The notes beneath the pieces were generated by a model. It saw only the letters and a program-made list of their open reading frames with translations. It was not told the DNA's origin and did no database searches. A stretch of 64,000 nt of DNA from Natronobiforma cellulositropha (lineage in GTDB: Archaea > Halobacteriota > Halobacteria > Halobacteriales > Natrialbaceae), in contig NZ_JANZXN010000015.1 in the NCBI RefSeq assembly GCF_025629245.1, positions 62,001 to 126,000 on the forward strand, written 5' to 3'. The first letter of the stretch is position 1, and each line of letters starts with the position of its first letter. Shown piece by piece: positions 50,796 through 56,093 of the stretch. Both the position numbers and the translations under genes were made by a program.

Positions 50796-51007
50796 CGTCT
50801 TTCGGCGTACGTCTCGGATACGTCATACTTCTGTGACCGGTTTCGTTCGTTCATCGTGTTCAGATCCGCTCGAGCGTGGCGCCGGAGCGTAGTATTGTAT
50901 TACCGGGACGGCGGCCGGCCGGTACGAACTGCTTACCCGATTTCGAGCGCGGAAAACTGATTGAAACATTGGACAGACCTATTTACAGTGATGTGGTCGA
51001 GCGCAAT

Positions 51008-51607
51008 ATGGCCGAAAGCCAACAAGAAGAGGCGACCCTGTCGCACCTCGTCGTGAAGGAGGCGGTGAGCAAGGGCATGGACTCCTCGCTCAGAGAGTCG
51101 ATCGTCGAAGCCGTCGAGGAAGCCGACGGTCCCCGTTCGAGTTCTTCGAAGCAATTCCCGCTCGTCGGCATCCTCGTCGGTCTCGCCGGTGGAATCGGCT
51201 ACCTGCTGGGATCGAAAGGCGAACTTCCGAGCACCGACGCGCTCGGTCTCGAGGGGGAGACGACACCCACGGGCGAGGACGTTCTCGAGAAGAAAGCAGA
51301 GATGACCGAGGCGGTGAGCGAAGAACTCGACGACGACCCGGAAGAAGCGGAGACGGAGGCATCCGGTGGCCGACTCCGCAGGCTCGTTCTCGTCCTGGCA
51401 GTCGTCGCCGGGGCGGTAGCGATCCGCCGACGCATGCAGGCGGACGACGAAGACGAGTGGGAACCGATCGAGGAGTTCGAAACGGCCGTGATCTCCGACA
51501 GTGACGAGGAGGAAGAGGCAGGTGAGGAGTCCGAAGCAGCCGACTCCGAAACCGACTCGACGGACGAAGAGCGCGCGGACGTCGCCGACGAGGACGAAGA
51601 GGAGTAA
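51008..51607 (+). CDS. Acidic two-helix membrane protein
   Basis: A 199-residue protein. The N-terminal 45 residues are soluble and helical (VVKEAVSKGMDSSLRESIVE). A glycine-rich membrane helix follows (FPLVGILVGLAGGIGYLLGS, about 49-68), then an acidic loop, a second helix (LRRLVLVLAVVAGAVAI, about 126-142), and a Glu/Asp-rich tail of 50 residues. A TATA CTATTTAC at 50979-50986 gives a leaderless start. No family is recognised; it shares its style with the acidic operon at 52921-56093. Confidence 0.7.
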   Translation: MAESQQEEATLSHLVVKEAVSKGMDSSLRESIVEAVEEADGPRSSSSKQFPLVGILVGLAGGIGYLLGSKGELPSTDALGLEGETTPTGEDVLEKKAEMTEAVSEELDDDPEEAETEASGGRLRRLVLVLAVVAGAVAIRRRMQADDEDEWEPIEEFETAVISDSDEEEEAGEESEAADSETDSTDEERADVADEDEEE

Positions 51608-51779: not shown

Positions 51780-52841
51780 ATGGAGACGACCCACCGGGTC
51801 ATCGTCGGCGACTCGCGCGACCTCTCGAGTGTCGCCGACGAGTCGGTCGATCTCGTGGTCACCTCGCCGCCGTACCCGATGATCGAGCTCTGGGACGACC
51901 TGTTCGCGTCGCTCGACCCCGCCATCGGCGAGGCGCTCGAAGCGGGCGAAGGCCAGGCGGCGTTCGACGGGATGCACGCACAGCTCGAACGCGTCTGGGA
52001 CGAACTCGAACGCGTGCTCGTCGACGGCGGTATCGCCTGTATCAACGTCGGTGACGCGACGCGCACGCTCGACGGTAGCTTCCGCGTCTATCCGAACCAC
52101 GCGCGGATACTCGAGTCGTTCACCGACCGCGGGTTCGACCCGCTGCCTGACGTCCTCTGGCGCAAGCCCGCCAACAGCGCGGCGAAGTTCATGGGCAGCG
52201 GGATGATCCCGCCCAACGCCTACGTCACGCTCGAGCACGAGTACGTGCTACTCTTTCGGAAGGGCGCGACGAGTCGCTCGTTTTCGGCCGGAGCCGACTG
52301 CCGCTACGAGGCGGCGTACTTCTGGGAGGAGCGAAACCGCTGGTTCTCGGACCTCTGGACGGACGTCCGCGGCGAACTCCAGGCGCTCGAGGGCGACGAC
52401 GTGCGCGAGCGCTCGGCCGCCTACCCGCTCGAGATTCCGTACCGACTCGTCTGTATGTACTCGACCTACGGCGACACCGTCCTCGACCCGTTCTGGGGGA
52501 CCGGCACGACCTCGCTCGCGGCGATGTGTGCGGGCCGGCACTCCGTCGGCTGCGAGCTCGAGTCGGCGTTCGTCTCACGCTTCGAGGAGACCGTCGACGA
52601 GACGCCCTCGCTCTCGCGAGCGGTCGCTCGAGCGCGTCTCGAGAGCCACCGTTCGTTCGTCGAGGAGCGCACGGCGAGCGGTGACGAACCGGCGTACCGA
52701 GCCGAGCACTACGACCTGCCTGTCGTGACGAAGATGGAACGCCACATCCGTTTCTACGCCGTCGACGAGGTCGTGTCCGTCGACGACGGCTACCGACTGC
52801 ACCACACACCCGTCGAGGACATCCCTCGAGAGGGGACCTGA
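51780..52841 (+). CDS. zim: CTAG-specific N4-cytosine DNA methyltransferase Zim
   Basis: A 353-residue DNA methyltransferase of the beta order: catalytic motif IV VVTSPPYPMIELWDDLF (residues 27-43) comes first and the SAM motif I DPFWGTGTTSLAAM near residue 240. SPPYPMI followed by WD is, as I recall, characteristic of the MthZI/MjaI group that modifies CTAG, called Zim in haloarchaea, where it is an orphan enzyme without a restriction partner. No endonuclease is adjacent here. The ATG 51780 matches the family start. Confidence 0.85.
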   Translation: METTHRVIVGDSRDLSSVADESVDLVVTSPPYPMIELWDDLFASLDPAIGEALEAGEGQAAFDGMHAQLERVWDELERVLVDGGIACINVGDATRTLDGSFRVYPNHARILESFTDRGFDPLPDVLWRKPANSAAKFMGSGMIPPNAYVTLEHEYVLLFRKGATSRSFSAGADCRYEAAYFWEERNRWFSDLWTDVRGELQALEGDDVRERSAAYPLEIPYRLVCMYSTYGDTVLDPFWGTGTTSLAAMCAGRHSVGCELESAFVSRFEETVDETPSLSRAVARARLESHRSFVEERTASGDEPAYRAEHYDLPVVTKMERHIRFYAVDEVVSVDDGYRLHHTPVEDIPREGT

Positions 52842-52920
52842 GACCGGCGTCAGCCTCTCACGCACACGCAAGCCTAACTACCACGCACCGGCGTGGTGTG
52901 TGACGTACTGGTTTTCGGCC

Positions 52921-53859
52921 ATGGGCGACAGATCAGCGCGTGAACGCGACAGTGGCACCGGCGACCCCGCCCTCTCGAGGAGCGAAGGGATGGCGTGTGA
53001 GACGGGGAGACGAGTAGACAGGCGTTCACGCTCGCTCGTCACCGACGGTGGGTCCGACGCCGAGAGTGAAGAGTCGGCAGCCGACGAGCCAGCGGACGGC
53101 TCCGAGAGTGAGGCAGGTGACGACGAGAACGACGTGAGCGACGACGAGACGGACGAAGAAGCCGAGTCCGAATCCGAAGAAATGGACGAATCGGACGACG
53201 AGACGGACGACCAAGTCGAGTCCGAGCCGGACGAGACGGACGAGGAGGAGCGACCGACCGAAGACGACGACGCCGTCGGCGTCCACAGCGGCGACGCGGA
53301 GGCCGCCTACGAGAGCGACGATACCTCCGGCGTCCTCCACCTCGACCTCGACGGTCTCGCGCTCGACCTCCTCGGACTCGAGGTGAACTTGAACGAGGTC
53401 ACCCTCGACGTCTCGGCCCGCCCGGGTGAGAACAACCTCCTCGGCAACCTGCTCTCGGGAGTCACCGGCCTACTCGATGGTCTCGCGATGTCGCCGCTCG
53501 AGGCGCTCACCGATCGGCTGAGTGGCCTGAAAGACACCATCACGGACGCGCTCCCCGGGTCGCCGCTCGGGTGGGTCCGCTCGAAACTCGGCGGCTTCAG
53601 AGAGCGACTCCCCAGCCCGCTCGAGGGGCGGGAGGTAGGAGACGGCGAGGAGTCCGAAGGGGGCTTCATCTCGTCGATTACGAGTTCCGTCCGGGGTGCG
53701 CTCGGACGCGTCGTCTCGGCGCTGCCGCTCGAGGACGTCATCGCCGTGGTCGTCCGCGCGGCCGTGCGCGGCCTGGTCCGCGGTGCGAGTGAGGTGACTG
53801 AGGAGGAGGAAGCGCAGCCAGAACCGGATGCGGCGCAGTCTGCGGAGGCACAATCATGA
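52921..53859 (+). CDS. Acidic protein with LDLLGL/GNLLGNLL motif, first gene of acidic operon
   Basis: 312 residues. Residues 40-135 are Glu/Asp/Ser-rich and disordered. Residues 137-187 read GVLHLDLDGLALDLLGLEVN, then TLDVSARPGENNLLGNLLSG and VTGLLDGL. I recall this motif from bacterial proteins of unknown function (LDLLGLxV...PGxGNLLGNLLC...LLDG). Amphipathic helices follow, ending in a Glu tail. It has no signal peptide. Its last four bases overlap the next gene (ATGA). The ATG 52921 is preferred over the GTG at 52900. Confidence 0.7.
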   Translation: MGDRSARERDSGTGDPALSRSEGMACETGRRVDRRSRSLVTDGGSDAESEESAADEPADGSESEAGDDENDVSDDETDEEAESESEEMDESDDETDDQVESEPDETDEEERPTEDDDAVGVHSGDAEAAYESDDTSGVLHLDLDGLALDLLGLEVNLNEVTLDVSARPGENNLLGNLLSGVTGLLDGLAMSPLEALTDRLSGLKDTITDALPGSPLGWVRSKLGGFRERLPSPLEGREVGDGEESEGGFISSITSSVRGALGRVVSALPLEDVIAVVVRAAVRGLVRGASEVTEEEEAQPEPDAAQSAEAQS

Positions 53860-54326
53860 GTGACGAGACACTACTCCAGCGAATCGATTACGAGGAAGTC
53901 GTCGAGAAAGTCGACGTCGACGAGTTGCTCGAGGGTACCGCGTGGGAAGGAGAGATCGATACCGACGAGAACCTCGGTGCGGCAATCGGTGGTCTCGTCG
54001 GCGCGTTCGTCGGTCGGAAGGTCGGCGAAGCGATCGGCAAGTCGATCGGTGAGGCGCTGGTCGAGGAACTGCTCGGTGAGGACGAAGCGGACGAAGACGA
54101 CGAGGAAGACGAAGAGAGCGAGGCCGAAGACGACGAGGAAGACGACGAGAGCGAGACCGAAGACGAGACGGACGAAGAGACGAGCGACGAGGGCGAGGAA
54201 GACGACGCGGAGACGAGCGACGACGGTGAAGAAAGCGATGCTGAGGCGAGCGACGAGAGTGAGGGAGAAGAAGCGGAAGCGAGCGGTGACGAGGAGGAGT
54301 CGTCCGAGGACAGTGATTCCGAGTGA
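53856..54326 (+). CDS. Glycine-zipper acidic protein, second gene of acidic operon
   Basis: 156 residues. After a helical start (LLQRIDYEEVVEKVDVDELL), residues 40-66 form a glycine zipper, GAAIGGLVGAFVGRKVGEAI and GKSIGEAL, of a type that packs helices in membranes or oligomers. From residue 75 to the end nearly every residue is Asp, Glu, Ser or Ala. Translationally coupled to the gene before. No family recognised. Confidence 0.65.
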   Translation: MSDETLLQRIDYEEVVEKVDVDELLEGTAWEGEIDTDENLGAAIGGLVGAFVGRKVGEAIGKSIGEALVEELLGEDEADEDDEEDEESEAEDDEEDDESETEDETDEETSDEGEEDDAETSDDGEESDAEASDESEGEEAEASGDEEESSEDSDSE

Positions 54327-54356
54327 GCACGACAGCGTCCTCCCGACCGACCCGAG

Positions 54357-55217
54357 GTGAGTACCGTGGCTGAAGAGGCTGTCGAGGAACTCTCGAGTCT
54401 GGTGCTCGAGGAAGCCACAGACCAGATCGACGCCGAGGCGCTCCTCGACGGCGGGTCGCTCGAGGAGCACATCTCGGCCGAGCGCGTCGGCGCAGCGGTC
54501 GGTGCGGAACTCGGCGAGCGAATCGGGCGCGAACTCGGGGAGACCATCGGACGCAGCGTCCACGAGTCGCTCGCGGCGGGTGTCGAACGCGGCGCCTCCA
54601 TCGGCGAACTGGCGACCGAGGTCAAGGAGGCCGTCGTCGACGCCCTGCGGACGGTGACGGGGACCGACGAGGACGATGGTGACGGTCTCGCCTCGAGCGC
54701 TCGCGAGGCCGCCGACGAGGGCCGCGAACGAGTCGAGGACGTTACACCGGACCTGAGCGAGGAGGGAGACGACGACGGTGACGGTCTCGCCTCGAGCGCC
54801 CGCGAAGCCGCCGCGGAAGGCCGCGAGCGAGTCGAGGACGTCACGCCTGATCTGAAAGACGGCGAAGCGGAGGAGACGGTGAGCGACGAGGAAGACGAGG
54901 AGACGGCGAGCGAGGACGAAGAAGACGCCCCCTCGCTCCCCGACGCCGACGACCTCGGAGAGTTCCGTCGAGAGACCCTCTCGGAGTTTCTCGAACTCCT
55001 CTCCTATCGCGACCTGCAGTCGATTGCGAAGGACCTCGACGTTCGTGCAAACCTCACCCGCGAGGAGATGACCGAAGCGATTCTCGAGACGGTAGCCGAC
55101 GACGCCGGCAGCGGCGACGGAACAGACGGCGAGAGCGCGGCGGCGGAAGAATCCGACGACGAAGCGGGCGCAGACGCCAGCAACGAACACGAAACCGAAC
55201 GTGGTGAGACGGCGTGA
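54357..55217 (+). CDS. Glycine-zipper acidic protein with internal repeat, third gene
   Basis: 286 residues from a GTG start. Residues 44-80 form a second glycine-spaced helix pair (VGAAVGAELGERIGRELGET). A 28-residue unit, DDGDGLASSAREAADEGRER plus VEDVTPDL, occurs at 106-133 and 139-166, looking like amphipathic helices. After an acidic stretch, residues 199-247 form a small helical domain (GEFRRETLSEFLELLSYRDL, LDVRANLTREEMTEAILETV) resembling SAP or Rho-N folds. Three bases separate it from the next gene. Confidence 0.65.
   Translation: MSTVAEEAVEELSSLVLEEATDQIDAEALLDGGSLEEHISAERVGAAVGAELGERIGRELGETIGRSVHESLAAGVERGASIGELATEVKEAVVDALRTVTGTDEDDGDGLASSAREAADEGRERVEDVTPDLSEEGDDDGDGLASSAREAAAEGRERVEDVTPDLKDGEAEETVSDEEDEETASEDEEDAPSLPDADDLGEFRRETLSEFLELLSYRDLQSIAKDLDVRANLTREEMTEAILETVADDAGSGDGTDGESAAAEESDDEAGADASNEHETERGETA
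54672..54854 (+). repeat. Internal tandem duplication in the third acidic-operon gene
   Basis: Two copies of an 84-bp unit at 54672-54755 and 54771-54854 encode nearly the same 28 residues; DNA copies differ at silent sites, so the duplication is not recent. Confidence 0.85.
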
Positions 55218-55220
55218 GCG

Positions 55221-56093
55221 ATGAGTGACGACCTCTCGGAACGGCTCACCGACCTCCTCGACGCCGCGGAGGCGGCCCTCGAGTCGGACGACGACGAAGC
55301 CCTCCTCGAGACGGCCGAAGAGGCGTCTTCGGTGCTCGAGGATGGACCCACCGAGGAGGTGCTCTCGGCGCTCGGCTTCGAGACGGGTGCCGACGGCCCG
55401 GGATCGATCCCCGAAGCCGTCCTGACCGGCGAGCGAGAGTCGGTTTCCGCGCTCAACGCGCTCGTCAAACTCGAGCGGCTGGCGGGCGGCGAAGAGCCGT
55501 CTTCGGACGCACGCTCCGCACTCGATGCGGCGCTCGAGGCACGAGCGCCAGCGGGTACTGCCGTCGACGAATCCGACGACGGAGCGAGCGACGAGAGCGA
55601 GGAGAGTACGGATGAGGGCGACGAAGAGAGTGCAGACGAGGGCGACGAAGAGAGTGCGGACGAGGGCGACGGAGAGGGTGCAGGTGAAGGCGACGAAGGG
55701 AGTGCGGATGACGAGAGCGAAGACGGAGAGCGCCGGGGAGACACGGACGGTGACGAGACGGTGACCGACCGCGTCGGTGAGACGCTCGAGGGTATCACTG
55801 AGGGAGTGGACGACGAGTCGCCGCTCGCGGACGCGGTCTCGGAGCGACTCGGTGCGTTCGGTGACGACCTCGAGGGACTTCGCGGGACGCTCGAGGGGGC
55901 GCTGGGGGACGACTCGAGCGAGGAACCGGGCGGCGAAGGTGAGACGGACGACGAGGACGACCCGCTGTTCGACTCGTTCGGTTCGTCGGAGTCGGCGAAG
56001 GGGACGATGTATTCGACGGTGGCTCCGCCGCCGTCAGAGCGTGCGGACATGCGCACGTCGACGCGTCACTCGACGATGCCGGACCGGAAGTGA
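55221..56093 (+). CDS. Acidic repeat protein, fourth gene of acidic operon
   Basis: 290 residues. The helical N-terminal domain (LSERLTDLLDAAEAALESDD, EEVLSALGFETGADGPGSIP, ALNALVKLERLAGGEEPSSD) is followed by repeats of DEGDEESA (about 131-160), a DRVGETLEGITEGV helix, and a non-acidic tail, GTMYSTVAPPPSERADMRTS plus TRHSTMPDRK, that is unlike the rest and looks like a conserved terminal peptide. Three bases after the previous stop. Function unknown. Confidence 0.65.
   Translation: MSDDLSERLTDLLDAAEAALESDDDEALLETAEEASSVLEDGPTEEVLSALGFETGADGPGSIPEAVLTGERESVSALNALVKLERLAGGEEPSSDARSALDAALEARAPAGTAVDESDDGASDESEESTDEGDEESADEGDEESADEGDGEGAGEGDEGSADDESEDGERRGDTDGDETVTDRVGETLEGITEGVDDESPLADAVSERLGAFGDDLEGLRGTLEGALGDDSSEEPGGEGETDDEDDPLFDSFGSSESAKGTMYSTVAPPPSERADMRTSTRHSTMPDRK

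Follow-up and report, generated by a model that had tools for sequence, protein, structure and literature searches.

A conserved four-gene operon of haloarchaea with a probable link to gas vesicles

Haloarchaeal gas vesicles are encoded by the gvp cluster (gvpACNO / gvpDEFGHIJKLM), for which a 2015 review describes 14 genes and calls the 11 gvp genes of clusters without gvpC sufficient for vesicle genesis (PMC4390858). GvpC, with its repeats of 33 residues, stiffens the vesicle shell, and its binding partners are GvpF, H, I, K, L, N and O (PMC9501494); its loss leads to long, weak vesicles (PMC7688916). Loss of GvpI leads to very long vesicles; this protein interacts with the accessory complex and is not known as a shell component (PMC7688916), and an extended GvpI has been noted earlier in Natrialba magadii (PMC3403918). 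Here we describe an operon of four genes, A1, B2, C3 and D4, in a 64,000-nucleotide stretch of the Natronobiforma cellulositropha genome (GCF_025629245.1, contig NZ_JANZXN010000015.1, positions 62,001 to 126,000), hereafter called the window. Given its phylogenetic profile, its linkage to gvp genes, the homology of D4 to GvpI, a promoter skeleton common to A1 and gvpA and the absence of overlap with detected gvpC, the operon is very likely associated with the gas-vesicle system. An earlier note, made from the letters of the window alone, had proposed an undescribed free-standing system, which the profile, the linkage and the promoter skeleton now tie to gas vesicles.

Distribution and linkage to gas-vesicle genes

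The conserved core of A1 is a diagnostic family motif and was used as a profile across 392 Halobacteria genomes, of which 130 matched; the gas-vesicle family PF00741 matched 162. All 130 A1-positive genomes are PF00741-positive, and A1 is found in 0 of the 230 PF00741-negative genomes (Fisher 1e-73, kinship ignored). Within two genera of the window's family (g6 and g9), A1 and the gvp genes are absent in parallel, which fits co-loss, and a B2 profile matched none of 20 gvp-negative control genomes. Both states occur within genera g6, g7, g9 and g10. A search of 84,980 species genomes restricts the A1 core to haloarchaea and archaeal metagenome-assembled genomes, and the plasmid collection searched gave no A1 match. 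Genome G216, scored as A1-negative, keeps B2-C3-D4 intact together with the upstream element (L232:4805-7198), and its A1, cut down to an N-terminal remnant of 88 residues, lacks the conserved core.

The distribution of gvpC is complementary. Sequence-detected gvpC occurs in 0 of the 130 A1-positive genomes versus 15 of the 32 A1-negative, gvp-positive genomes (Fisher 1e-12, kinship again ignored), and in the same 15 genomes a long acidic open reading frame (ORF) stands directly before gvpN. The sole match of the GvpC searches among A1-positive genomes is in G035, which has, besides a gvpC-less cluster and the operon, a second cluster whose gvpC is divergent. In G308, a genome with no gas-vesicle genes detected, a short ORF of 113 aa (C4:208863-209057) matches the zinc-finger-like end of GvpC alone.

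In practically all Natrialbaceae loci (about 29 others, with neighbourhoods of up to 19 kb) the order and orientation of the four genes are unchanged, and the same order recurs in most of the 71 named loci; the earlier note had asked whether they stay together in other haloarchaea. Since the ORFs and their order are kept in other Natrialbaceae loci, A1-B2-C3-D4 are genes and not chance frames; at L038 and L046 a simple gene caller missed genes. The flanks of the operon vary among the Natrialbaceae loci, so the conservation is that of the operon and not of a long syntenic block. A search with C3 matched 39 of 61 genomes (the window's own and its relatives), some of them through the C-terminal module alone.

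In most Natrialbaceae the operon is unlinked to gvp genes. This includes the window genome, where it lies on contig C7 and the main gvp cluster lies on contig C9 at about 167.6-173 kb. The C9 cluster comprises gvpO, A, F, G, H, I, J, K and L plus a third PF00741 gene in the place of gvpM, and neither gvpC nor gvpN was found in the genome. Linked loci are known both inside and outside the window's family. Two members of the family (L218, L219) have gvpA-gvpO-A1-B2-C3-D4 beside gvpFGHIJKLM, and Halocatena marina (L170) has gvpF-G-H-A1-C3-I-J-K-L-M. At L064, A1 and a B2/C3-type gene are placed between gvpH and gvpI; at L062, D4-C3-B2-A1 adjoins gvpM-L-K; at L069, A1 and a B2/C3 fusion stand beside gvpA; and in Halalkalicoccus paucihalophilus (L203), A1-B2 follows gvpA. 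Further gvp-linked loci are L173, L174, L193, L204, L220 and L222. Because the A1-(B/C)-gvpI order of L170 and L064 mirrors A1-B2-C3-D4, the separate operon may derive from a segment of the gvp cluster.

A scaffold, membrane assembly or condensate that stands alone, without any gas-vesicle link, would account for a tight operon of acidic, low-complexity, zipper-containing proteins, for the lack of gvp linkage in most Natrialbaceae and for genome G015, which has an intact operon and a gvpJ/gvpM remnant as its only gvp sequence. The profile, the linkage, the GvpI homology and the promoter evidence described below have largely refuted it already, and we regard it as very improbable. The remnant of G015 (L110:9088-9651) is one frame that joins gvpJ-like and gvpM-like pieces, and the operon lies elsewhere in that genome.

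Upstream element and the four proteins

In most Natrialbaceae a conserved element with the consensus GCAYACGCAAGgcmAAYnaCCACAACG precedes A1, usually by 50-60 bases. A strict pattern is present at 51 of 93 A1 loci and a matrix finds more; among 37 genomes scanned, 14 contain the exact pattern, once each and always upstream of A1, and the reversed control gave 0. Outside A1 itself, the highest-scoring match in the 2.9 Mb of loci retrieved precedes gvpA in L062/L174, which are two entries for a single locus, and the A1-motif matrix scores gvpA upstream regions above those of other genes (p = 2e-6, an indicative value). The skeleton GCA-N3-GCA-N5-A[AG][CT] is found upstream of 48/91 A1, 11/28 gvpA, 0/39 gvpF, 0/29 gvpO and 5/1863 other genes, and its distance to gvpA equals that to A1. 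The promoter p-values are to be read as indicative because the skeleton was defined after both the A1 and the gvpA sets had been seen and because related genomes are non-independent.

Profile-profile comparison matches D4 to the long GvpI of gvpC-less clusters across 246 aligned columns (hhalign probability 99.2, E 1.3e-19). When run against every called protein of the fetched loci, the D4 hidden Markov model (HMM) matches GvpI and little else, and an HMM of the long GvpI matches classical basic GvpI at 1e-9 to 1e-17 via the STxP region. On these profile matches D4 is a GvpI-family paralogue, so the statement that no known family was visible in the operon no longer holds. We call it a paralogue and not GvpI itself: D4 is acidic, and the GvpI at the usual position in gvpC-less clusters is likewise long and extended. 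The window genome keeps its own separate gvpI between gvpH and gvpJ in the main cluster.

The layout of the locus is as first described, four co-directional genes with an ATGA overlap or gaps of 3-30 bases, and so is the extreme acidity of the products (Table 1). The isoelectric point (pI) is near 4.05 for all four, and the Asp plus Glu fraction is 0.27 in A1, 0.47 in B2, 0.32 in C3 and 0.32 in D4 (ranks 10, 2, 4 and 3 among the 59 called ORFs of the window, median 0.185). Scans of Pfam, NCBIfam and PHROG with the four proteins gave nothing over a curated cut-off, and sequence searches of the PDB gave chance matches alone. A coupled, scaffold-like set without an enzyme motif remains a fair description. 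The operon is undescribed in the open literature searched (subscription journals lay outside the search), and A1, B2 and C3 are not described in the searchable family models.

Table 1. Coordinates of the operon and its features, numbered from the first base of the window.
Feature	Position	Strand	Basis or remark
Conserved element GCACACGCAAGCCTAACTACCACGCACC	52862..52889	+	60 bases before A1 start
A1 (gene 1)	52921..53859	+	ORF of 312 aa
A1 conserved core VLHLDLDGLALDLLGLEVNLNEVTLDVSARPGENNLLGNLLSGVTGLLDG, diagnostic family motif	53329..53481	+	22-sequence alignment, 17 invariant columns
A1 amphipathic middle region	53482..53622	+	11-residue repeats, degenerate in this genome
A1 C-terminal helical region	53668..53808	+	AlphaFold2 helices, local pLDDT 77-89 inside a low-confidence model
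B2 (gene 2)	53856..54326	+	ORF of 156 aa; ATGA overlap with A1
B2 glycine zipper (GAAIGGLVGAFVGRKVGEAIGKSIGEA)	53970..54059	+	GxxxG run reached in 0/10,000 shuffles
C3 (gene 3)	54357..55217	+	ORF of 286 aa; GTG start; 30-base gap after B2
C3 C-terminal SAP/Rho_N-like module	54945..55112	+	AlphaFold2 pLDDT about 93; weak Pfam/Foldseek matches
D4 (gene 4)	55221..56093	+	ORF of 290 aa; 3-base gap after C3
D4 C-terminal STxP motif region (GTMYSTVAPPPSERADMRTSTRHSTMPDRK), common with GvpI	56001..56090	+	profile/HMM matches
pLDDT, predicted local distance difference test.

The claim that the four proteins share one design proved only half right. B2 consists of a glycine-zipper helix and a very acidic tail, and C3 of a zipper helix, an acidic linker with a tandem repeat and the C-terminal module; their GxxxG runs extend over 25 and 21 residues, respectively, and neither was equalled in 10,000 shuffles. 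A1 and D4 have no glycine zipper. The internal repeats that had been reported are there in C3 (DGDGLASSAREAADEGRERVEDVTPDL, two copies) and in D4 (DEGDEESA), as read from the translation. The N-terminal regions of B2 and C3 are paralogous (38%, E = 1e-7). Profile searches of the folded modules, which the earlier note had called for, led to GvpI for D4 and stayed below the Pfam cut-offs for B2 and C3: the B2 zipper scores 24 bits against Gly-zipper_Omp PF13488 (gathering cut-off 25), and the C3 module 15.1 bits against Rho_N PF07498 (cut-off 24.9). The AlphaFold2 model of C3 shows confident helices and the SAP/Rho_N-like module, for which Foldseek returns DEK, Rho and SAP chains with a probability of up to 0.99 but E>=1. 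On inspection of the sequence, the zipper helices have charged residues at about every turn, and a reading of B2 and C3 as membrane proteins was therefore set aside. The "granule coat" of the earlier note came close, and nothing supports the membrane assembly or the free condensate that it had listed beside it.

Diverged B2/C3-type zipper genes are also seen in or beside gvp clusters at L213:7256-7936 and L223:3240-4145, where the fetched stretch contains no called A1; this suggests that gas-vesicle systems feature zipper proteins more broadly than A1. Weak B2-profile matches in G155 and G272 were dropped, the fetched flanks having no tblastn match to the reference gvp or operon proteins. The SAP/Rho_N-like module of C3 (SYRELQ..AK..GVKANLSREEMT) is also appended, in haloarchaea, to ribosomal protein uS3 and to an Hsp20-type protein (L065:8723-9670, L067:8955-9551). 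The GvpC of two Natrialbaceae (L104:12184-13434, L224:9555-10577) ends in a SAP-like segment, LQYGKLKQAANRVGYDGNLNAAKKDELVAFL, which replaces the zinc-finger-like end of other haloarchaeal GvpC; kinship of this end with the C3 module is unsupported, as the module HMM has no GvpC match at E<=1.

A1 is made up, in order, of an acidic disordered N-terminus, the hydrophobic core, the amphipathic middle and a C-terminal helix. Hydrophobic residues alternate in the core (LHLDLDGLFLDLLGLEVNLN-VTLDVSARPG-NNLLGNLLSAVxGLLDG). In most Natrialbaceae, the middle is an array of basic, amphipathic 11-residue repeats of the SKPKELLSGLL type, and 11 is the best self-match lag in 39 of 69 A1 sequences; the lag-11 shuffle fraction of the window's A1 is 0.024. 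Foldseek with the A1 model was uninformative and gave no fold match.

Two neighbours of the operon recur in some relatives. Immediately upstream (window 51780-52841) there is a gene for a putative N4/N6 DNA methyltransferase, whose orthologues, 75-79% identical, also adjoin the operon in L033, L041, L053 and L056, though not in most relatives. At 50876-51607 the window encodes a protein of very high acidity that has two hydrophobic segments and matches no family above cut-off; it is conserved in synteny with the operon in L048, L053 and L056.

Possible roles in vesicles without gvpC

Within the gas-vesicle association, the operon probably serves the shell or the assembly of gvpC-less vesicles, and whether it is the counterpart of gvpC we consider an evenly balanced question. 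A detailed coat model is tentative, and we hold it with more doubt than conviction. A1 would sit on the GvpA shell, attached by its conserved hydrophobic core and its 11-residue amphipathic repeats, in the way that GvpC uses repeats of 33 residues; this role is suggested by the amphipathic repeats and by the distribution complementary to that of gvpC. The glycine-zipper helices of B2 and C3 would let these two proteins multimerise and so hold A1 together, and their acidic tails would keep the surface soluble in saturated salt. D4, together with other accessory proteins, would limit vesicle length in the manner of GvpI, as a second factor of the GvpI type for length or assembly.

A different role within the system would fit the profile, the linkage and the promoter evidence equally well. 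Here the four proteins would not coat the shell but help to nucleate, chaperone or cluster vesicles, or tether them to nucleic acid or ribosomes via the C3 module, which resembles the nucleic-acid-binding SAP/Rho_N domains and is also found on haloarchaeal uS3; GvpI, the relative of D4, is a partner of the accessory complex and not a known part of the shell (PMC7688916). However, the exclusion of gvpC and the A1 repeat array point to a shell role, and the Foldseek E-values of the C3 module lend the nucleic-acid-binding fold weak support. We judge this alternative unlikely, although it deserves to be kept in view.

Several observations weigh against the reading of the operon as a gas-vesicle module that does the work of GvpC. 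A1 has no sequence similarity to GvpC in the GvpC searches, and we rejected it as a GvpC homologue. The repeats of the window's own A1 are degenerate, and its AlphaFold2 model is poor (pLDDT 63). Seventeen gvp-positive genomes without detected gvpC, G216 among them, are also without an intact A1, so the A1 and gvpC states are exclusive but not exhaustive and gvpC-less clusters do not strictly require the module. G015 keeps its operon with little left of gvp. Lastly, the named species with gvpC-less clusters are reported as vesicle-negative (Vac-), for a reason that is not known according to the review (PMC4390858).

This last point, set against a gvp complement that the review calls sufficient and against the wide conservation of both loci, would also suit a gas-vesicle-derived compartment with a use other than buoyancy, for which the four proteins would be a new outer coat. 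Vac- may, however, mean merely that the genes are unexpressed in the laboratory, and the GvpA of gvpC-less clusters is 76-90% identical between genomes and a good match to the halophile GvpA model; we find such a compartment improbable. Returning to a coat on gas vesicles proper, it is conceivable, if a little short of an even chance, that gvpC-less clusters and the operon make up a second major class of haloarchaeal gas vesicles, commoner than the gvpC type in the sampled genomes, in which a four-protein coat (A1, B2, C3, D4) stands in for GvpC, is usually encoded off the main gvp cluster and is co-regulated through the shared promoter element. If so, the reported Vac- phenotype would be due to a lack of induction or to a different, specialised kind of vesicle.

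The operon genes accompany gvpC-less clusters in most genomes and usually lie elsewhere in the genome, hence annotation or cloning of the cluster only would miss them. They offer a direct way to ask why gvpC-less clusters have not been seen making vesicles, and the upstream element is an entry to regulation in species without gvpD and gvpE. If A1 to D4 do act on the shell, they would be new parts for engineered gas vesicles.

Comparison with described systems

Two Pfam families are locally similar to parts of the operon, Gly-zipper_Omp (PF13488) to the B2 zipper and Rho_N (PF07498) to the C3 C-terminal module, both with scores below the curated cut-offs. A1 would work in a GvpC-like way, through acidic regions and amphipathic-helix repeats (11 residues in A1, 33 in Anabaena GvpC, PMC9501494), and GvpC occupies the genome set complementary to that of A1. 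The repeats of 32-39 residues and the zinc-finger-like C-terminus of GvpC are absent from A1, which is not a member of the GvpC family.

D4 has the C-terminal STxP region in common with GvpI, and the long GvpI of gvpC-less clusters additionally shares its N-terminal helical region. In contrast, GvpI of Hbt. salinarum is basic (pI 10.75, PMC7688916) and D4 acidic (pI 4.05), the final R-x-YG-x-R segment of GvpI is absent from D4, and gvpI normally stands between gvpH and gvpJ whereas D4 belongs to a separate operon.

The described haloarchaeal gvp cluster is present in all 130 A1-positive genomes and linked to the operon in several lineages, its gvpA promoter skeleton is common to A1 and its GvpI is paralogous to D4. 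It differs in that none of its 14 described genes (PMC4390858) is a counterpart of A1, B2 or C3 and in that the operon is usually encoded away from it. Taken together, these comparisons indicate that the operon is very probably an accessory module of the known gas-vesicle system, with A1, B2 and C3 new to the literature and models searched.

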